Shown here one piece after another: positions 50,309 through 63,327 of a DNA stretch of 64,000 nucleotides. Numbering within the stretch: the first letter of the stretch is position 1; each line of letters opens with the position of its first letter. The translations under genes and the position numbers were made by a program. The notes below the pieces were generated by a model, which saw nothing but the letters and a program-made list of their open reading frames with translations, had not been told where the DNA came from and did not search any database. This DNA comes from Hyphomicrobium sp. (GTDB lineage Bacteria; Pseudomonadota; Alphaproteobacteria; Rhizobiales; Hyphomicrobiaceae): the NCBI RefSeq assembly GCF_019753045.1, contig NZ_JAIELN010000006.1, forward strand, positions 1 to 64,000, written 5' to 3'.

Positions 50309-51256
50309 TCAGGGCGAAAGATCTCTGGCAATTCGAAAGCCAAGCGTCTGATTGCGAAAGAACGGCCAATTCCGGAGCCGCATAGCGGCGCGCATCTGGC
50401 GCGGCTCATAAAAGCACGAGCCGCCCCGAAAAATGCGCAGTCCCTCAATCGCGCCAGGCTTGCCGCAGCTTTTTGATTGACGTGCGGAACCGTCTTTCGG
50501 ACCCGTTTCGTAGTCGTCGCAGTAGTAGTCGGCGACCCACTCCCAGACATTGCCGTGGACGTTATAGAGGCCGAAGCTATTCGGCTTAAAGCTATCGACC
50601 GGATAAGCGCCTGTGCCATCGCGCTCGCTACCGCAGCCGCGACAGCAGGCCATCACCTCGCCGTTGTTCTTGACGTCTCGTCCCCACCAATACGAAGTCT
50701 TGCTGCCAGCCCGCGCCGCATATTCCCATTCCGCTTCTGAAGGCAGGCGATAGTGATGACCGGTCTTCTTGGACAGCCAGTCGGCATAGGAGGTGGCATC
50801 GTCCCAGCTGATACCGACGATCGGCTGATTGTCGCCCTTGATGTAGTCCGCCATGCTTTTGTACGTCACACCGCTGCCTGTGTAGATGTTGTGCTCGCCG
50901 CCAGGCTCGAGCCATTCAGGTGGCCGGCAGGCTTTCGCCTCGACGCAGGACATATATTCCGCAGCCATCACTTCGTATTTGCCGATCGCGAATGACCCGA
51001 TCGAAACGCGATGCAGCTTCTCCGATGGCAAACGTTCGGGCTCGTCTTCCGGAGAGCCGATCTCGAATCCCGGCGGCGACGCTGGGATGACGACCATGTC
51101 CGGACAGTGCGCGGCGGGACAATCGTTGATCGTTTGCACAGCGGCCACGCCATCGGCCGCAAACGCTGGCCAGATGGCGATGATGAACGCTAAGGATACG
51201 AATGCCGGGAGTGTCGCGCATGCGCAAGCAAGAGCGATGTCGGTGAGACGACGCAT
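50309..51256 (-). CDS. SUMF1/formylglycine-enzyme-like periplasmic protein
   Basis: 315 residues. A signal-type N-terminal helix (ALACACATLPAFVSLAFIIA) is followed by a complete FGE-sulfatase fold: MVVIPASPPGFEIGSPEDEP, FAIGKYEVMAAEYMSC, YRLPSEAEWEYAARAG, GNVWEWVADYY, and RGGSCFYEPRQMRAAMR. In real FGE two cysteines at +3 and +8 after RGGS do catalysis; here they are Tyr and Met, and the Cys is at +1. So it is not expected to make formylglycine. Many extra cysteines suggest disulfides. The role here is unknown; it lies with PQQ-dehydrogenase genes. Confidence 0.85.
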   Translation of the reverse strand: MRRLTDIALACACATLPAFVSLAFIIAIWPAFAADGVAAVQTINDCPAAHCPDMVVIPASPPGFEIGSPEDEPERLPSEKLHRVSIGSFAIGKYEVMAAEYMSCVEAKACRPPEWLEPGGEHNIYTGSGVTYKSMADYIKGDNQPIVGISWDDATSYADWLSKKTGHHYRLPSEAEWEYAARAGSKTSYWWGRDVKNNGEVMACCRGCGSERDGTGAYPVDSFKPNSFGLYNVHGNVWEWVADYYCDDYETGPKDGSARQSKSCGKPGAIEGLRIFRGGSCFYEPRQMRAAMRLRNWPFFRNQTLGFRIARDLSP

Positions 51257-53114: not shown

Positions 53115-53909
53115 ATGATTGGAAGAGCGCTTTTCCCGAATTGGCTCTGTCGTCTGAGCATGTTCTGCGCGCTCCTGATTATATCGCCGGTATCGGTTTC
53201 TGTGCGCGCCGAACCGGCTGACAAAAAGGCCGAATGCACGAAGGATCTGATGTTCGTGTTCGACGCGTCAGGGTCGATGGGGACGACGGATCTTACCGCA
53301 AAGGAACCGCACATTGAGCGGGTGAAGAGAGCGCTCCATCGTATTCTTCCGGAAATTCCGCCATCCCGCCGAATGGGGCTGATCATCTACGGCGAGGGGG
53401 CCCACAACCAATGCGACAGCGTTGAATTGAAGGTTCGGCCGCAACTCAATGCTGGGCCGACGATCGTCGCCGAGGTCGACAAGGTTCAGCCCATGGGCCG
53501 CACGCCACTAACGCAATCGGTTCGCGATGCTGCAGATATTCTGGACTACCGGCACAATCCCTCGGTCATCGTTCTCTTGACCGACGGTGAAGAGACATGC
53601 GGCGGCAAGCCCTGTGAACTGGCTGAGGCGTTGAAAGCGGATTCAACTGATTTGACGATCCATGTTATCGGCTACCGTCATAGAGATGCGGCGGGGCTCG
53701 GAGCGATATTCGGCGCGCGCTGCCTCGCTGAACAAACCGCCGGCCTCTATCTCTCGGTCGAGACGGAGGATGAACTCGTCGATGCTCTGCGCAAGACGTT
53801 GACGTGTCCGCTGACTGCCGAAACGGCGCCGAAAGGCGGAGCCATCACGAAGGCGGAGATATCGAGCCCGTCGCCCGGAATTTGGCTCCGGCCGTATCTG
53901 TCGCGGTAA
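53115..53909 (+). CDS. exported VWA-domain protein
   Basis: 264 residues. Signal-type N-terminus (LCRLSMFCALLIISPVSVSV) then a von Willebrand A domain with an intact MIDAS: DASGSMG, Thr in GRTPLTQS, and Asp in LLTDGEE. Cysteines (ECTKDL, QCDSVEL, TCGGKPCEL, RCLAEQ, TCPLTA) suggest a disulfide-stabilised periplasmic protein. VWA proteins (such as MxaC/MxaL) help assembly of calcium- or lanthanide-dependent methanol dehydrogenase; a similar role here is inferred. It overlaps the convergent SoxYZ-like gene by 65 nt. Confidence 0.88.
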   Translation: MIGRALFPNWLCRLSMFCALLIISPVSVSVRAEPADKKAECTKDLMFVFDASGSMGTTDLTAKEPHIERVKRALHRILPEIPPSRRMGLIIYGEGAHNQCDSVELKVRPQLNAGPTIVAEVDKVQPMGRTPLTQSVRDAADILDYRHNPSVIVLLTDGEETCGGKPCELAEALKADSTDLTIHVIGYRHRDAAGLGAIFGARCLAEQTAGLYLSVETEDELVDALRKTLTCPLTAETAPKGGAITKAEISSPSPGIWLRPYLSR

Positions 53910-54672
53910 ACTCGAGATCGGCGGGGCTCTCCGTTGCAAACGTGAAGCGGATATTGGGATCTTCCGAAATCGAAATTCCGCCCTCCATCGACCACAACAC
54001 GGTATTGCCCTGCTTCACTTCGATGGCGTTGACGAAGCGAGCGGGCGTGTAGTGGCCGGTTGTTTTGTTCATCTGCATGCCGGTGAAGTTCGGGTGCTTG
54101 ATCATCACGCGCGCTTCGCGCCAATCCTTGCCGTTGGAGTCGTCACGCAAGATCGTAAGATGCGCCTTTCCCATCTGTGCGAGCGCTTGTTCCGGTTCCT
54201 TTGAAGCAGGGGCCGAACATCCTCCCGAGCCGATGACGAATTTCGATGCCATGTGGAGCACGCCGTCCGTCGTCTCGAGAACAACGCGAACGCGGCTGAA
54301 AGCATCCACCCGAACGCGCGTTGCGAGCGTTCTTTCCCCGACGTCGGGTCCCTTTCTGAAGCCATCGCCAAAGGCGAAGTTCGCGGCGACCGGCACAGGG
54401 TTTCTGTCGATGATGAGCGTCAGCGTCTTCGCCGAAGCTGCGACCTTTGATGGAATTTTGATCGAAATAGGAACGACGGCGGCGTCGTCCGCCTGGTTCG
54501 GTGCGAAGATCTGGACACTCGCCGGGTCGTCTTGCACCGGCCTGTTGGCAAAGAGCGCTTTCTGAATTTCAGGCCAGGGGTCATCCTCTGCCACTGCCGA
54601 GAATGCGAAAGCCGTGAGGCCGGTCGCGGCGGAAAGAAATGCCGTCGAGAATTTGCGCAAAATGGATTGCAT
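53845..54672 (-). CDS. quinoprotein dehydrogenase-associated SoxYZ-like carrier
   Basis: 275 residues with signal peptide (STAFLSAATGLTAFAFSAVA). The N-terminal half (about 55-150) resembles SoxY, with VVPISIKIPS and FVIGSGGCSAP; a Cys lies in GGCSAP near where SoxY bears its GGCG swinging arm. The C-terminal half (about 170-275) resembles SoxZ (IKHPNFTGMQMNKTTGHYTP). Fused SoxYZ-like proteins are known in PQQ-alcohol-dehydrogenase clusters; their carrier role is not understood. Its presence supports the assignment of this region. Confidence 0.87.
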   Translation of the reverse strand: MQSILRKFSTAFLSAATGLTAFAFSAVAEDDPWPEIQKALFANRPVQDDPASVQIFAPNQADDAAVVPISIKIPSKVAASAKTLTLIIDRNPVPVAANFAFGDGFRKGPDVGERTLATRVRVDAFSRVRVVLETTDGVLHMASKFVIGSGGCSAPASKEPEQALAQMGKAHLTILRDDSNGKDWREARVMIKHPNFTGMQMNKTTGHYTPARFVNAIEVKQGNTVLWSMEGGISISEDPNIRFTFATESPADLEFTATDTAGAKFRATGSISPPS

Positions 54673-55995: not shown

Positions 55996-56527
55996 AGACC
56001 CGATTTTCACGAACGGTTGAACTGAAATATCGCTCCCGGGATTTTGAGGCATAGAATTCGGGAGAATTGCCCGTGGCGGAATGTCGAAGCCTATCGGCAT
56101 ATTGCAAATGCCACGTTGAAAGGCGTCGAGCGGTTTTCTCCCGTGCTCCGCTCGGCGCCGATTTTTTTGGCTTCTATCGTCCGATGGCATTTCGGGGGCA
56201 AAACTGATCCCTATGCGTCGTGATAACATCACATCCGCGTGAACAGGAAGCCTTCCTATACGCGCTAGGAACAACTCCCATGGTTTCGGAAAAATTTGAA
56301 CATTAGCGTCCTCACGCTGAAGTACAGCGGGCTGTTTCGCGTCAAGCGGTACAGCTGAATAACGACCCGACGCACGCAGTTAGCCAAATCACTTCGTCGT
56401 TTCTCAGTCCGCGACCAGCCGGTTCGCGGAACGAAGTCTCTTTGTTTGCTGCGAAGCCGGAAAAGAGCCGTGCCGTGATCGGCGAAAGCGGACCGCGGTG
56501 AAAATGAAAGGCTATGGAGGAAGCACA
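55996..56527. other. intergenic region upstream of xoxF
   Basis: 530 bases with no convincing ORF or RNA. It must hold the xoxF promoter and any lanthanide-dependent control site. I could not pick a -35/-10 pair with confidence. A strong ribosome site, GGAGGAAG, lies at the right end for the ATG at 56528. Confidence 0.5.
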
Positions 56528-58411
56528 ATGAGAATGAGTTCGCTCCGTTATTTTGCGGGCGGAATCTTGGCGGCGCTGATCGGGATTTCCGTTCCAGCGG
56601 TTGCCGAAGATGAAGTTGCGCAACGCGCGGCCAATCCCAACGAGTGGGCTGCGCCGGGCCGTGACAACGCCTTGACCCGTCACAGCCCGCTTAAGGACAT
56701 CACAGCCGACAACGTCTCGAAGCTGCAGATGGTCTGGTCGCAATCGACCGGCGCGCTTCGCGGTCATGAAGGGCAGCCCGTGGTCATCGAAGACGTTGGC
56801 GGCAAGCCGATGATGTTCTTCGTCTCCGGCTGCCCCGAGATGTCGAAGTGCAATATCGTACAGGGTCTCGATCTTTCCGATCCCGACCACCCGAAGCAGA
56901 TTTGGAACTACGTGAAGCAGACGGACCGTGACGAGACCGCAGTGCCGCGGGCATGCTGCGATACGGTCAACCGCGGCCCGGCTTATGGCGATGGAAAGGT
57001 CGTGTTCGGCACGCTCGACGGCTTCCTCATCGCTCTCGACGCCCAGACCGGCAAGGAAGCCTGGGTTGTCAAGCATGCGTGGCCGGAAAAAGGTGAGACG
57101 ATCACCAACGCGCCGCTTATCGCCGATGGCCTTGTCATCATCGGATTCGGCGGTGACGAGTTCGCTGCCCGCGGCCGGGTCAACGCCTACGACCTGAAGA
57201 CCGGCAAGCAGGTTTGGAAATGCTACTCGACGGGCTCCGACAAGGACGTCTGTCTGACGCCGGAAACCAATAAGGCCAACCCGCACTACGGTACGGCAGG
57301 CAAGGATCTCGGCATCCACACGCACGTCGGCGACGATTGGAAGATCGGCGGCGGTTCGGCGTGGGGCTGGTTCAGCTACGATCCAGAACTGAAGATGGTC
57401 TACTACTCGACAGGCAACCCTGGCCTGTGGAGCCCCGCTTATCGTTGCGCCAAGAAAACGCACGAGGAATGCAACACGGGCGAGTTCGACAATAAGTGGT
57501 CGATGACCATTTTCGGGCGCAAGGTCGATACGGGTGAAGCGGTCTTCGCTTACCAGATGACTCCGTTCGATCAGTGGGACTACGACGGCGTCAACGAGAA
57601 TATTCTCGTCGACATGAACGTCGACGGCAAAGACCGTAAGACGCTTGTTCACTTCGACCGCAACGGCTTCAGCTATGTTCTCGACCGGACCGACGGCACG
57701 CTGCTCCGTGCCAACAAGTACGTCACCGTGAACTGGGCCGAGAAGGTCGACCTCAAGACAGGCCGGCCGGTGAAGGTCCGCGAGCACTCCCCGCTCGAAC
57801 GTGGCCGCAACGTCAATGCCTGCCCGTCGGCGATGGGCGGCAAGGACCAGCAGCCGTGCTCGGTCGATCCGGCAGAGCCCAACAAGTTCTATTGCCCCAC
57901 GAACAACTGGTGCATGGAGCTTGAGCCGCAGGAGCGCAGCCACACGCAACAGGGCACGGTCTACGTGTTCGCCAACGTGTTCATGTTCCCGGAGAAGCCC
58001 GGCGTCACCGGCAAGATCAAAAAGTACGATGTCTTGACCGGCCAGACCGATTGGGAAATTCCGGACCAGTATCCTAACTGGGGCGGCACGCTCAACACAT
58101 CCGGCGGCCTGATGTTCTACGGCTCGCTTGGCGGAGATTTCCGTGCAGTCGATCGCAACTCCGGCAAGGTCCTGTGGGATCGCAAGCTCGCCTCAGGCAT
58201 CATCGGCAATCCGATCACCTACAAGATCAAAGGCAAGCAGTATATCTCGATCTTGTCGGGTATTGGCGGATGGATCGGCGTACCCGTCACCGCAGGCCTC
58301 GATCTCAACGACAAGTTCGGTGCGATCGGCGCCACGGCCATGACCAAAGCAGCAAACCTCGACAAGATTCCCCAGGCCGGAACGCTCTTCACGTTCCGGG
58401 TGATGGAATAG
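56528..58411 (+). CDS. xoxF: XoxF-type lanthanide-dependent methanol dehydrogenase
   Basis: 627 residues from the ATG at 56528 with GGAGGA upstream. Signal peptide (MRMSSLRYFAGGILAALIGI, cleaved near VAE). Eight-bladed PQQ propeller. Diagnostic residues: vicinal disulfide Cys 143-144 (RACCDTVNRG) over PQQ, and DYD in FDQWDYDGVNEN (Asp 351 and Asp 353). The second Asp is the extra ligand that marks lanthanide enzymes; MxaF has Ala there. It oxidises methanol, perhaps other small alcohols, in the periplasm and gives electrons to cytochrome cL. The clade (XoxF1, 3 or 5) cannot be fixed by eye. No mxaI is present. Confidence 0.95.
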   Translation: MRMSSLRYFAGGILAALIGISVPAVAEDEVAQRAANPNEWAAPGRDNALTRHSPLKDITADNVSKLQMVWSQSTGALRGHEGQPVVIEDVGGKPMMFFVSGCPEMSKCNIVQGLDLSDPDHPKQIWNYVKQTDRDETAVPRACCDTVNRGPAYGDGKVVFGTLDGFLIALDAQTGKEAWVVKHAWPEKGETITNAPLIADGLVIIGFGGDEFAARGRVNAYDLKTGKQVWKCYSTGSDKDVCLTPETNKANPHYGTAGKDLGIHTHVGDDWKIGGGSAWGWFSYDPELKMVYYSTGNPGLWSPAYRCAKKTHEECNTGEFDNKWSMTIFGRKVDTGEAVFAYQMTPFDQWDYDGVNENILVDMNVDGKDRKTLVHFDRNGFSYVLDRTDGTLLRANKYVTVNWAEKVDLKTGRPVKVREHSPLERGRNVNACPSAMGGKDQQPCSVDPAEPNKFYCPTNNWCMELEPQERSHTQQGTVYVFANVFMFPEKPGVTGKIKKYDVLTGQTDWEIPDQYPNWGGTLNTSGGLMFYGSLGGDFRAVDRNSGKVLWDRKLASGIIGNPITYKIKGKQYISILSGIGGWIGVPVTAGLDLNDKFGAIGATAMTKAANLDKIPQAGTLFTFRVME

Positions 58412-58521: not shown

Positions 58522-60363
58522 ATGGCTTTTGATCGCAGTCTGCGGCGTCCGCGGCGTTTCCGGGCTCTGGCGGCCACACTGTTGATGTCCGGCCTGAATA
58601 TCGCCGGCCAGTCCGCTTTCGCCGCCGATGCCCCGACTGACAAAGACAAGCATCGTCTCGAGGCTGCGCTCGCTCGCCTCGAAGCGCAGATGCCGCTGAC
58701 GTCTGCCGATCACAACGCGCTGAAAAAGGCCGCGATGGAACGGCGAATTCCGGCCCTTCGGGTCTGCGGCGATCCGGGTAACTTGCCGCTTTCGGATATC
58801 AATCGCGCGGGTTTCCAAAACAAGATCATAGAGCTCATCGCTGCCGAGATGGGTACATCCGTTACCTATTTCTGGCGGCCCTATCTCGAACGCGGAATCA
58901 CACGGCAGACGTTCGAATCCGGCGATTGTGACGTCCTGCTCGATCTGCCGGTCGGCTTCGAGCGAGTCCTGACGACCGAGCCGATCTATCGGACGACGTA
59001 CGTCCTCGCTTACCGCATTGATCGCGGCCTGAAGATCAAGGATCTCGATGATCCGCAGCTGCAGAAGCTTTCCATCGGTACGTTTCAGACGTCCGGCATT
59101 CGCATGGCGCTGGCTGAACGCGGCATACGCAGCAATGTGAGCCTTCACGTCCTGAGCCACAATTCTGACCTCGACCCCGCGGCCCAGCCCTGGCGGCAAG
59201 TGCAGGATGTCATCGACGGGAAACTCGACGTTGCGGCGGTGTGGGGGCCGTTTGCCGGCTGGCTGAAGACGATGAAGGGCGAGCCGCTCGTCATCCAGCC
59301 GGTCAATCTCGACGAGGATGATGTTCCGCTCGAATTCGACCTGACGATCGGTCTCCGGAAGATCGATTGGATCCTCAAGTACAAATTCGATCTGGCGCTG
59401 GAAGCGAAGAAGGCCGAGATCGAAAAGATACTGCGGGACTATGGCGTGCCGCTCGTGCAATGCAGCCGTTGCTTCGTCGCCGGGGATCTTCCGTCGCACG
59501 GCATCTATACGAAGCCCGTTATGGCGGCGAACCCTGTGCACGTCGCGATCGCGCCCGATCAGAACGTCACGCGTGAACGCCTCGAAAATTGGCTCAAAGA
59601 AGGAGCCGACATCAACCAGGAGCTGGCGAACGCTGTACTTGCCGATGACAAAGATCGCATCTCGTTCCTGATCGACAAGGGCGCCGATGTAAACAAGCTC
59701 GATCGCGAAGGGTATGCGCCGTTGCACATCGCTGCGCGAAACGAGCGTCCGGAAATCATTACTGCACTGATTGGCCGCAAAGCTGACGTCAACATAAAGG
59801 ACCGGGACGGCTACACGCCGTTGCAGCATGCTGTGCTGCGTAACTCGCCGCCGGCCATAGAAGCACTGGGGAGCCACGGCGCCGATCTCGAGGCACGTAC
59901 GCCCGCAGGCGTGACGCCGCTCGCTTTGGCGATCCTGGAAAGCAAATACAAGGCGGCGATCGCTCTCATCGCCGCCGGAGCAAACGTCGAGACGGCGGAC
60001 GGAGAGGCGAAGCTCACGCCATTGATGCTGATTTCCGGCTCCGAAGACCGGGAGCTGACATTGGCCGCCGGAGTATCGCGAATAGAAAAGGTCAATCCCG
60101 GCGATCCAGGTCCGATTGATGTCGCCCGCGCGATGATCGCCAAAGGCGCGAAGGTCAACGACGTTTCGGGCTCGGGCGTGACGGCGCTTCTCCTTGCTGC
60201 CGCGCACAACAATGCTCCGATCGTCGGTCTACTGGCACAGGCCGGCGCTGATCCGAATTTCAAGTCACCGCAGGGTCAGACCGCTGCCGATCTCGCCCGC
60301 CAGAACGGCAACACCTCGGTCGTCAGCCTGCTTGGCCTTCTCTCTCAGGAGCGGAGCAATTGA
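58522..60363 (+). CDS. XoxJ-like binding protein fused to ankyrin repeats
   Basis: 613 residues from the ATG at 58522 (GAGAG upstream; earlier in-frame ATGs at 58507 and 58474 are possible). Signal peptide ends near SAFAADA. Residues about 70-320 match the MxaJ/XoxJ-type family of quinoprotein dehydrogenase-associated periplasmic binding proteins: LRVCGDPGNLPLSDINRAGF, GDCDVLLDLPVGFERVLTTE. A CSRC pair follows. Residues about 345-610 are seven or so ankyrin repeats (DREGYAPLHIAARNERPEII, DRDGYTPLQHAVLRNSPPAI, GVTPLALAILESK). XoxJ is normally about 270 residues and activates XoxF; this fusion adds a protein-binding solenoid. Confidence 0.92.
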   Translation: MAFDRSLRRPRRFRALAATLLMSGLNIAGQSAFAADAPTDKDKHRLEAALARLEAQMPLTSADHNALKKAAMERRIPALRVCGDPGNLPLSDINRAGFQNKIIELIAAEMGTSVTYFWRPYLERGITRQTFESGDCDVLLDLPVGFERVLTTEPIYRTTYVLAYRIDRGLKIKDLDDPQLQKLSIGTFQTSGIRMALAERGIRSNVSLHVLSHNSDLDPAAQPWRQVQDVIDGKLDVAAVWGPFAGWLKTMKGEPLVIQPVNLDEDDVPLEFDLTIGLRKIDWILKYKFDLALEAKKAEIEKILRDYGVPLVQCSRCFVAGDLPSHGIYTKPVMAANPVHVAIAPDQNVTRERLENWLKEGADINQELANAVLADDKDRISFLIDKGADVNKLDREGYAPLHIAARNERPEIITALIGRKADVNIKDRDGYTPLQHAVLRNSPPAIEALGSHGADLEARTPAGVTPLALAILESKYKAAIALIAAGANVETADGEAKLTPLMLISGSEDRELTLAAGVSRIEKVNPGDPGPIDVARAMIAKGAKVNDVSGSGVTALLLAAAHNNAPIVGLLAQAGADPNFKSPQGQTAADLARQNGNTSVVSLLGLLSQERSN

Positions 60364-60495
60364 GGCGCGTTGTGACAATCAATTTCGGGAAATTTCGGCA
60401 ATGGCGAACGCGTTAAATGGAGAGTGTCGGTTGTCAGCCGAACCAATGATTTGAGCACTTGGGGTAAATTTGAATATGCAGGGAAGGATCGGCTC

Positions 60496-61065
60496 GTGAG
60501 AAATTGGAATTGGGTATCTGTATTTATCGCTGCCTTGATACTGGGCACAGCGGCGTTGTTCGTATCCGCGAACATCGTCATGGCCGATGACGACGATGAT
60601 CCGCAGGCTGCAGCCAAAGCAGCGGCAGCCAAGGCTTATGAAGAATTCAAGGCCAGGAAGCCGACGGAGGTCACGCACAAGCCCCCGCTCGAAGTCGATA
60701 AGGCCAATCCCATTGGGACGATGAAGAACCCCTACACGGATCAGGCCGACAAGATCGAAGAGGGCAAGAAGCTCTACTTCTCATACAGCTGCAATGGCTG
60801 CCACGGTGGTGGCGGTGGTGGTGGCATGTGTCCGCCGCTCACGAATGAAACTTGGGTCTACGGCGGCGATGACGACATCCTCTTCCGGCTGATCTCGCAC
60901 GGCAGCCAGGATCTGCAGAAGACTTACGGGCTGAGCCGCAAGGGTCAGGAAAGCGTTGTCGGACCGATGCCGCCATTCGGCGAAATCATCAAGGACGACG
61001 ACGAATTGTGGAAGATCATTGCCTTCGTTCACTCGCTTTACAAAGGCTCGAAGAGGACCTGGTGA
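60496..61065 (+). CDS. xoxG: cytochrome cL-like electron acceptor of XoxF
   Basis: 189 residues from a GTG at 60496 with GGAAGGA upstream; an ATG further up (60424) has no site. Signal peptide (WVSVFIAALILGTAALFVSA). Heme site CNGCH (Cys 99-His 103) followed by a seven-Gly stretch and MCPPL; axial Met probably in GPMPPFGE. It accepts electrons from XoxF and passes them to the terminal oxidase chain. Stop overlaps the next start as GTGA. Place directly after the binding protein fits xoxFJG-type order. Confidence 0.9.
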   Translation: MRNWNWVSVFIAALILGTAALFVSANIVMADDDDDPQAAAKAAAAKAYEEFKARKPTEVTHKPPLEVDKANPIGTMKNPYTDQADKIEEGKKLYFSYSCNGCHGGGGGGGMCPPLTNETWVYGGDDDILFRLISHGSQDLQKTYGLSRKGQESVVGPMPPFGEIIKDDDELWKIIAFVHSLYKGSKRTW

Positions 61066-62336
61066 CGAGGCAACAGCGAAGCGCCCCGTACGTCCTTGCG
61101 AGCACAATGCAAGTTGCCAAAGGGTTAGCATTAGTGCTGGCGGCATTCCTGATGTGTCTGGCTGATCCGGTGCGGAGCAATGAAGCTCCGCCCGGAGATG
61201 GCGCGCGCACGGCGCTTGGCATCACAATAGCTTACCTCGGGAAGACCTACGCCGAAGCCGAGCCGCTTTCCCTTGTCGATAAGATCTACACGGATAAGGG
61301 CATCCAGGGCGCGCGTGTTGGGCTCGTAGAAGACAACATGACTGGCCGCCTGATCGGCCAGCATTATGCGCTTGTCGAAGCCATTGTTCCGGAAGGCGAG
61401 GATATCAAGCCGAAAGCGCTCGAATTGTTCAAGTCGGGCGTTTCGTTGATCGTCGCGGACCTCGAACCGGCGGATCTTCTCGCCGTCGCGGATCTTCCCG
61501 AGGCAAACGACGCCATCATCATGAGCATCCGCTCGAGCGACGACAGGATTCGTAACGAAGACTGCCGAAAAAACATTTTTCACATCCCTCCCGATTGGGC
61601 GATGCGCGCAGACGCGCTCGCCCAGTTTCTGATCTGGAAGCAATGGCGGAAGTGGGCGCTGATCTCTGGCGAGATGCCGAAGGATAAGGACTATGCGGCC
61701 GCGGTGCGCCGAGCGGCGGCGCGCTTCGGCGGAAAAATCGTCGGCGAGAAGTCTTATGCGTATGTTGCGGGTTCCCGCCGCACCGACACCGGGCATCAGC
61801 AGATTCAGAAGCAGATGCCATTGCTCACGCAGGGCCTCGGCGATGCCGACGTCATCATCGTCGCGGATGTCGAGGAAAGTTTCGGCGACTACCTTCTGTT
61901 CAATAGCTACGAGCCGCGCCCTGTTGCGGGTACCCACGGCCTGACCGCCGTTTCATGGCATCGCTCCTATGAGGAGAGCGCCGCGACGCAGATGCAGAAC
62001 CGGTTCGAACGCAAGACCGGCCGCGTCATGACGGAGCGCGATTATTCCGCCTGGCTTGCCGTGCGCACCTTCGGCGAAGCGGTGACGCGCACCAACTCGG
62101 CGGATCCGGGCGTGCTCCGGTCATACCTGCTGTCGGACAAATTCGAGGTCGCCGGGTTCAAATCGCAAGGCATGAATTTCCGGCGATGGGATCGTCAGTT
62201 GCGCCAGCCGGTCCTGCTGGCGGGGCCGCGGGCACTGGTTTCGATATCGCCACAGGAAGGCTTCCTGCATCCCAAATACCTCACCGACACGCTCGGCTAC
62301 GACGAACCGGAATCGAAATGCCGACAGCGAAACTAA
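61062..62336 (+). CDS. PQQ-dependent pathway-associated ABC-type substrate-binding protein
   Basis: 424 residues if started at the GTG at 61062 that overlaps the cytochrome stop (GTGA); an ATG at 61107 would drop 15 residues. Signal-type helix (GLALVLAAFLMCLADPVRS). Periplasmic leucine-binding-protein fold: GITIAYLGKTYAEAEPLSLV, GLVEDNMTGRLIGQHY, FSGEMPKD-type region ALISGEMPKDKDYAAAVRRA. Such proteins are recurrent in PQQ alcohol-catabolism clusters with a matching ABC exporter, not seen in the window. Substrate unknown. Confidence 0.88.
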   Translation: MTRQQRSAPYVLASTMQVAKGLALVLAAFLMCLADPVRSNEAPPGDGARTALGITIAYLGKTYAEAEPLSLVDKIYTDKGIQGARVGLVEDNMTGRLIGQHYALVEAIVPEGEDIKPKALELFKSGVSLIVADLEPADLLAVADLPEANDAIIMSIRSSDDRIRNEDCRKNIFHIPPDWAMRADALAQFLIWKQWRKWALISGEMPKDKDYAAAVRRAAARFGGKIVGEKSYAYVAGSRRTDTGHQQIQKQMPLLTQGLGDADVIIVADVEESFGDYLLFNSYEPRPVAGTHGLTAVSWHRSYEESAATQMQNRFERKTGRVMTERDYSAWLAVRTFGEAVTRTNSADPGVLRSYLLSDKFEVAGFKSQGMNFRRWDRQLRQPVLLAGPRALVSISPQEGFLHPKYLTDTLGYDEPESKCRQRN

Positions 62337-62358: not shown

Positions 62359-63327
62359 ATGATGCGATTAGGTTGGAAACTGGCGATTATTTCGTTCTGT
62401 ATGGCTCACCCGGCACTCGCGGGCACAGCCTTCATCAGCAACGAAAAAGACAACACCATTACCATGCTCGATACGGGTACGCTGAAAGTGGTCAAGACCG
62501 TTCCCGTCGGAAAGCGGCCGCGCGGAATGGTGCTCTCTCCTGATTACAAAACGCTCTTCATCTGTGCGGGTGACGACAATCGCCTCGATGTGATGGATAC
62601 GACGACATTTGAAATCACCAGCACACACGAGACATCAGGTCCAGATCCCGAACTGCTCGACATCGATCACGCCGGCAAGTTCATTTACATCGCCAACGAA
62701 GACGACGGCATGGTGACGGTGATAAGCGCTGCCGACGGGGCCGTGCGCGGAGAGATTCAGATCGGCGTCGAGCCCGAAGGTATGGCGGTGTCCCCGGATG
62801 ATACCATCGTGGTTGCGACATCGGAATCGACCAGCATGGCGCATTTCATCGATATCAAATCGATGACGGTTATCGCCAACGTGCTGGTCGATACGCGCCC
62901 GCGGGTTGCCCGTTACACGCCCGATGGAAAAGAGGTCTGGGTCACTGCGGAAGTCGGCGGCACCGTATCGGTGATCGACGCGGATCAACGCAAGATCAAG
63001 CAAAGACTGACGTTCGATATCCCGGGGGTCCGGCCGGAGTTGATCCAGCCGATGGGCGTGAAGTTCACACCCGACGGCAAGCGCGCGTTCGTTGCCCTAG
63101 GCCGGGCCAATCGTATCGCGGTCATAGACACCGCCACATACAAGACGTTGAGCCTTATCCTCGTTGGCCAGCGCCCCTGGCATATGGACTTCAACGCGGA
63201 TCACACGAAGCTCTTCACCGCCAACGGCCTCTCGAACGATGTCACTGTAATCGATGTCGCCAGCCTGAAGGCGGAGAAATCAGTCCCCGTTGGCCGCCTC
63301 CCTTGGGGCCTTGTCATCAAACCCTGA
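62359..63327 (+). CDS. PQQ-dependent catabolism-associated YVTN beta-propeller
   Basis: 322 residues. Signal peptide (MRLGWKLAIISFCMAHPALA) then seven YVTN-type blades: AFISNEKDNTITMLDTGTLK, IYIANEDDGMVTVISAADGA, VWVTAEVGGTVSVIDADQRK, and AFVALGRANRIAVIDTATYK. It ends VGRLPWGLVIKP. This family travels with PQQ dehydrogenases of alcohol catabolism. Function unknown; probably a periplasmic scaffold. Confidence 0.92.
   Translation: MMRLGWKLAIISFCMAHPALAGTAFISNEKDNTITMLDTGTLKVVKTVPVGKRPRGMVLSPDYKTLFICAGDDNRLDVMDTTTFEITSTHETSGPDPELLDIDHAGKFIYIANEDDGMVTVISAADGAVRGEIQIGVEPEGMAVSPDDTIVVATSESTSMAHFIDIKSMTVIANVLVDTRPRVARYTPDGKEVWVTAEVGGTVSVIDADQRKIKQRLTFDIPGVRPELIQPMGVKFTPDGKRAFVALGRANRIAVIDTATYKTLSLILVGQRPWHMDFNADHTKLFTANGLSNDVTVIDVASLKAEKSVPVGRLPWGLVIKP

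Follow-up and report, generated by a model that had tools for sequence, protein, structure and literature searches.

The window, a stretch of 64,000 nucleotides from Hyphomicrobium sp. (contig NZ_JAIELN010000006.1), carries a methanol dehydrogenase cluster in the order xoxF1, J-Ank, cytochrome c, TIGR03863 binding protein, and TIGR03866 propeller; a histidine kinase and response regulator come next, and then a second cluster. J-Ank denotes a fusion of a XoxJ-like protein with ankyrin repeats that sits, as a preliminary description of this DNA had stated, between xoxF and the cytochrome gene. The features of the locus are:

56498..58411, + strand: xoxF1, lanthanide methanol dehydrogenase (TIGR03075; lanthanide Asp in DQWDYDG; best PDB match 7o6z)
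58522..60363, + strand: J-Ank, XoxJ-ankyrin fusion, 613 aa (open frame, profiles, structure match)
58522..58623, + strand: signal peptide, residues 1–34 (basic n-region, hydrophobic core, AFA/AD; the cleavage point is our reading)
58753..59457, + strand: J domain, residues 78–312, periplasmic-binding fold (TIGR03871, 6onp, invariant C82 and C136)
59461..59502, + strand: fusion-specific hinge, residues 314–327, C-S-R-C-F-V-A-G-D-L-P-S-H-G (C314, C317, and G321 invariant)
59569..60360, + strand: ankyrin domain, approximately residues 350–613, cap helix and seven helix-pair repeats (Pfam, AlphaFold2 model)
60040..60105, + strand: loop (~residues 507–528) within the repeat beginning at ~residue 494 (low pLDDT at 509–525)
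60424..61065, + strand: c-type cytochrome, candidate XoxG1 (profiles; under the MoxG equivalog cut-off)
61008..62336, + strand: second periplasmic binding protein, TIGR03863 (profile; true start probably further in)
62359..63327, + strand: TIGR03866 beta-propeller protein (profile)

The second cluster comprises a 74% identical xoxF, a 49% identical J-Ank, a binding protein, and a propeller, and has no cytochrome; this second full-length J-Ank copy lies 7.3 kb downstream, beyond the window. The same genome encodes three stand-alone J proteins adjoining other XoxF/MxaF genes.

The xoxF product of the window matches PDB entry 7o6z best, with 859 bits versus 546 for 4mae and 507 for 6oc5, and the second copy scores 845 bits against the same entry versus 538 for the next. 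Both xoxF copies retain the lanthanide Asp, and this extra metal-binding residue is present in 48 of 48 XoxF1 sequences at the corresponding alignment column. We take 7o6z to be the XoxF1-type enzyme of PMC8546591. Judged by the 7o6z match and the tree described below, the dehydrogenase neighboring J-Ank belongs to the XoxF1 clade.

Two other genes on the minus strand of the window recur near XoxF1 clusters: a sulfatase-modifying-factor (FGE) type protein (50309–51256; 13/56 loci, including the window) and a SoxYZ-like, quinoprotein-associated carrier (53845–54672; TIGR04557, 240.9 bits; 18/56 loci). Outside the window, a further ankyrin protein of 309 residues, its N-terminus signal-like, is encoded on the minus strand of contig C1 of the same genome (L012:3997-7356). 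Adjoining it are genes for a PQQ alcohol dehydrogenase and for a protein resembling a c-type cytochrome, in which two CxxCH motifs can be picked out by eye; this is a second ankyrin-quinoprotein neighborhood in the genome.

Domain architecture of J-Ank

J-Ank is encoded by a single uninterrupted open reading frame of 613 codons. By a simple home-made rule, 54 of 55 fused proteins have a signal-like N-terminus. Residues 78–312 are covered by TIGR03871, the NCBIfam model named quinoprotein dehydrogenase-associated putative ABC transporter substrate-binding protein, at 233.1 bits, above its cut-off of 212.15, and match the solved XoxJ 6onp in sequence (E 9.9e-36). The MoxJ equivalog TIGR03870 reaches 112 bits, below its cut-off of 258.1; on profile grounds, J-Ank is therefore not MoxJ proper. 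In the C-terminal half, Pfam ankyrin models score far over their cut-offs (Ank_2 E 9.2e-28, 97.1 bits versus 27.3), and in the AlphaFold2 model a cap helix precedes seven helix-pair units. With several repeats over the Pfam cut-off and a helix-pair fold, J-Ank is an ankyrin-repeat protein.

The AlphaFold2 model has a mean pLDDT of 76.4 and a pTM of 0.47, with most of both domains at high confidence. The linker (res. 320–347) is of low confidence, so the angle between the J and ankyrin halves is not fixed by the model. A Foldseek search matched the model to MxaJ (5sv6, E 1.3e-14), MxaJ in the MxaF/MxaJ complex (9ism), XoxJ (6onp, E 1.7e-13, TM 0.87 by target length), and ankyrin structures. The loop at residues ~507–528 is missing in the verrucomicrobial homologue described below (locus L188). 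The preliminary description of a signal peptide, a XoxJ-like fold, and about seven ankyrin repeats in one 613-residue protein is thus borne out, also by the Pfam search that it had proposed.

Directly after the J domain lies a hinge with the motif C-[SAP]-x-C-x-x-x-G-x-[LI]-P-x-H-G, which the preliminary description had overlooked and which marks the fused form. C314, C317, and G321 are kept in 56 of 56 fused proteins and H326 in 52; the hinge cysteines occur in none of the 31 stand-alone J proteins compared. C82 and C136 are common to the fused proteins and all 31 stand-alone ones. These two residues, together with C314 and C317, are the sole cysteines from the J domain onward in 48/56 fused proteins. 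This pattern suggests that the hinge cysteines are joined in a disulfide, bind a metal, or act as a redox pair.

Distribution, neighborhood, and history of the fusion

A full-length J-Ank match was found in 27 of 103 genomes of the source family. Across the order, the fusion occurs in 23/397 genomes (E<=1e-45) spread over three families, and a XoxF1-level XoxF in 24/397 (E<=1e-190). All 23 fusion genomes are XoxF1 genomes, and no fusion was found in genomes of the order without XoxF1; in the 24th XoxF1 genome, G110, the 3367-base contig ends 349 bases from xoxF. At the same threshold of 1e-45, a draw from the class yielded the fusion in 1/385 genomes (the source genome), and a draw from the phylum in 3/398, namely the source, G1095 (from another order of the same class), and G1176 (from a different class). 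These order, class, and phylum searches scored no more than three candidates per genome and therefore give minimum copy numbers. No fusion was found on the plasmids searched at 1e-40. In one set of 33 loci, 14 are fusions, and in the remaining 19 the match is confined to the ankyrin part.

Among 288 genomes of Verrucomicrobiota, one (G1443) encodes XoxF1, at 62% identity. This XoxF1 (locus L188) is identical to 7o6z over all 618 aligned residues, so G1443 very probably represents Methylacidimicrobium thermophilum AP8 or a close relative. Downstream of its xoxF1 come a 537-residue J-Ank (274 bits with TIGR03871, E 7.5e-41 with Ank) and then a cytochrome. Intact J-Ank homologues thus exist in two phyla, Pseudomonadota and Verrucomicrobiota, which rules out an artefact or a frameshift between two genes, one of the outcomes that the preliminary description had named as fatal to the fusion. 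NC10 bacteria also possess XoxF1.

XoxF1 is adjacent at 53 of 53 distinct full-length fusion loci having upstream sequence (52 at the >60% identity cut, the 53rd being 60% identical), and at the loci examined no XoxF1 had an intact stand-alone J as its neighbor. The survey of genomes that the preliminary description called for recovered the same arrangement. The fusion it reported is real, and its estimate of a rare fusion is too weak: on the sequence comparisons made here, J-Ank is the J form accompanying the XoxF1 clade, present in 23 of the 24 XoxF1 genomes of the order, and no one-off. Other neighbors vary. A cytochrome gene lies within 2.5 kb downstream at 31/52 fusion loci, the verrucomicrobial one included, and is missing at 21/52; the second binding protein is found at 40/52 and the propeller at 51/52, two of them at just 23–30% identity. 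The verrucomicrobial locus is without the second binding protein and without a same-strand propeller. Since XoxF1 is constant and the cytochrome often missing, these neighborhoods favor XoxF1 as the partner of both J-Ank halves; the cytochrome may act in trans.

Trees group both the fused J domains and the XoxF proteins that go with them. In the tree of 87 J domains, a branch with SH-aLRT 99 separates 56 fused from 31 stand-alone domains, with the verrucomicrobial J-Ank deepest among the fused. The XoxF tree has 84 rows, labeled 47 fused, 28 alone, and 9 with no J in view. After removal of one long row (L105_7791), all fused rows fall in one 55-row clade with support 100, which also holds seven rows lacking a visible J and a single row labeled 'alone', L109. 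That label is wrong, as the locus ends within the J-Ank of L109; with this put right, 48 rows are fused and 27 alone, and 0/27 XoxF/MxaF proteins with a true stand-alone J lie within the XoxF1 clade. The fused alignment omits L071 (short), and the stand-alone set omits L109, L137, and L138, which are fusions truncated where their loci end. The trees were built by a quick method, with a long-branch warning on the J tree and the first XoxF tree.

Pairwise identities of the J half and the ankyrin half correlate at 0.85 over 1540 pairs, and the ankyrin half changes faster, with a mean identity of 0.48 versus 0.59. The repeats look collinear across phyla: four of the seven verrucomicrobial repeats (hand-cut) score best with the same-numbered profile, and this diagonal ranks 6th among 5040 permutations, which favors one fusion event.

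Strict one-to-one pairing of xoxF1 with J-Ank is rejected, as several xoxF1 copies have no complete J-Ank alongside. Of the seven clade rows without J in view, L013, L022, and L105 are cut by locus edges, and L081 (G368) has an incomplete J-Ank. The remaining three are real xoxF1 copies without a complete J-Ank: G053, the second copy of G017, where just the last ankyrin part remains, and the first of a tandem pair in G208. Nine more stretches were checked, and in G174, G287, G308, and G375 a tandem pair likewise begins with an xoxF1 that has no J-Ank of its own; J-Ank follows the second xoxF1 of these pairs and is broken in G308. The second xoxF1 copy of G458 is too near a contig end for a call. 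Every genome with a J-Ank-less xoxF1 copy holds another J-Ank (in G308, besides the broken one), which would therefore have to serve in trans. The tie between J-Ank and XoxF1 holds by genome, not by gene copy.

Several gene copies are damaged. J-Ank is split into two frames in one copy each of G174, G308, and G400, with an intact copy also in G174 and G308, not in G400. In G368, the match starts at residue 203 in one frame, even with more flank. These four broken copies, which are outside the 53-locus count, may be pseudogenes or assembly errors. Lone xoxF1 copies with no J-Ank in the stretch contain an in-frame TAG in G208, G287, and G174 (L197, L198, and L199, respectively); a lone copy also occurs in G375, with no stop reported. 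At the decaying XoxF1 cluster of G053 (G053:C4:1-9500, L195), J-Ank is deleted, the second binding protein and propeller were not found, and the closest cytochrome gene contains an in-frame TAA. In Methyloceanibacter marginalis (L021:2874-6080), the J-Ank frame continues into the TIGR03863 binding protein for 1069 codons, a join that resembles a frameshift after the last ankyrin repeat.

Possible roles of the ankyrin arm and hinge

The fold of residues 78–312 is the one seen in XoxJ of Methylobacterium extorquens AM1 (6onp) and in MxaJ (5sv6, 9ism). Stand-alone J genes mostly adjoin a dehydrogenase gene (19 of 20 stretches), as J-Ank does; unlike J-Ank, with its 613 residues, the stand-alone proteins have neither an ankyrin domain nor a C-x-x-C hinge. 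According to studies reviewed in PMC12997753, MxaJ/XoxJ may bind the partly folded apo-enzyme for PQQ and metal insertion, and a MxaF/MxaJ complex has been solved (9ism, by its structure title). By extension from this complex and the suggested holding of the apo-enzyme, J-Ank would do likewise for XoxF1. We consider it about an even bet (probability roughly 0.5) that J-Ank is a dedicated XoxF1 maturation factor whose ankyrin arm offers an additional surface for docking, most likely to XoxF1 itself. After export, the J half would bind immature XoxF1 during PQQ and lanthanide insertion, and the C-x-x-C hinge would connect it to the ankyrin arm. The arm would provide a second grip, most likely on the other protomer of XoxF1 or on a late-folding face. 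The maturation reading is built on the domain make-up, the conservation, the grouping in the trees, and the tie to XoxF1; from these we infer XoxF1 binding, the maturation role, the target of the ankyrin arm, and the role of the hinge. Gene adjacency is not proof of contact, which speaks against it, as do the xoxF1 copies without a complete J-Ank beside them and the conservation of the ankyrin surface. Repeat positions where ligands typically bind are conserved no more strongly than outer ones (mean entropy 2.08 versus 2.03, p 0.71), the positions and the repeat consensus in this comparison following the usual description of ankyrin repeats. Groove conservation as proof of ankyrin binding was thus tried with a negative outcome.

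The same conservation values, and the faster change of the ankyrin half, would fit a passive stabilizing tail handed down from one early fusion. We regard this as unlikely, given that an equal number of repeats is retained in two phyla and that XoxF1 is nowhere accompanied by an intact stand-alone J at the loci examined. The preliminary description had instead suggested that the fusion could scaffold XoxF, XoxG, and the propeller proteins. On this view J-Ank would be an electron-transfer scaffold and not a maturation factor, its ankyrin arm holding the cytochrome and perhaps the propeller or the second binding protein. The downstream cytochrome at 31/52 loci, in both phyla, and the near-constant propeller agree with such a scaffold, which nonetheless seems doubtful to us. 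Clusters of the second type retain a full J-Ank without a cytochrome gene, and G054 (97% complete, ~400 contigs) has one J-Ank and no cytochrome match better than E 7.4e-5. The TAA inside the closest cytochrome gene of G053 and the neighbors absent from the verrucomicrobial locus point the same way. These objections are weakened in that the cytochrome could still act in trans. We regard a signaling part as highly improbable; here the ankyrin arm would inform a membrane sensor, for instance the adjoining two-component system, of lanthanide status or of how far XoxF1 is loaded. A histidine kinase and response regulator do lie between both clusters of this genome and also near various XoxF1 clusters elsewhere, and XoxF1, XoxG1, and XoxJ1 of Methylocella silvestris drop upon lanthanide addition (PMC9291206). 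However, the kinase is inconstant at fusion loci, and the lanthanide response of M. silvestris XoxJ1 may not concern a J-Ank.

The hinge itself raises the prospect of a redox-active XoxF1 maturase, in which the ankyrin arm would grip XoxF1 while the C-x-x-C pair makes or rearranges its disulfides; we think this quite improbable. We know of no disulfide-making or rearranging step in other methanol dehydrogenases. The putative targets would be the vicinal Cys153-Cys154 pair, present in all XoxF/MxaF compared, together with additional cysteine pairs found in pseudomonadotal XoxF1. Among the 48 XoxF1 sequences, one of them verrucomicrobial, up to four such pairs occur at residues 112/118, 242/252, 317/325, and 454/466 in the numbering of the XoxF1 encoded in the window (in 42, 46, 47, and 38 sequences, respectively). 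They are missing in 27/27 other XoxF/MxaF and in the verrucomicrobial XoxF1, whose J-Ank keeps the hinge, leaving the vicinal pair as the sole possible common target. The case for the extra cysteines as hinge partners is thereby weakened.

For the maturation reading, AnkB of Pseudomonas aeruginosa offers a precedent, as a periplasmic ankyrin-like protein encoded with the redox enzyme KatB and required for full KatB activity (Howell 2000, by its title; PMC2830190). It differs in being a separate gene with a catalase partner, with no J domain mentioned. Verrucomicrobial methanotrophs have XoxGJ fusions, in which J is likewise joined to a component of methanol dehydrogenase systems, here a cytochrome in place of ankyrin repeats. 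The XoxJ of M. thermophilum AP8 (MTHMO_v1_1701) lies in the order xoxF1-xoxJ-cytochrome, the same as L188 (PMC7907005); with the identity of the L188 XoxF1 to 7o6z, this makes the AP8 protein very probably a J-Ank. Msil_3148 of M. silvestris is the XoxJ encoded beside XoxF1 there. Both are called XoxJ or solute-binding protein (PMC7907005, PMC9291206). Among the open-access papers searched, none links xoxJ or mxaJ with ankyrin. In open papers that join ankyrin, methanol dehydrogenase, and xoxF, the ankyrin passages are unrelated, and the word 'ankyrin' is absent from the main text of the XoxF/ped-system papers checked, including PMC9291206, PMC7907005, and PMC8546591.

The current names, XoxJ and ABC substrate-binding protein, conceal the fused form. 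A fused J with a C-x-x-C hinge is a simple genome marker for XoxF1 systems. The role of XoxJ is still debated, and a fusion tied to a whole XoxF clade, adjoining a XoxF1 already purified and crystallized, gives a clean handle on XoxF1 assembly.
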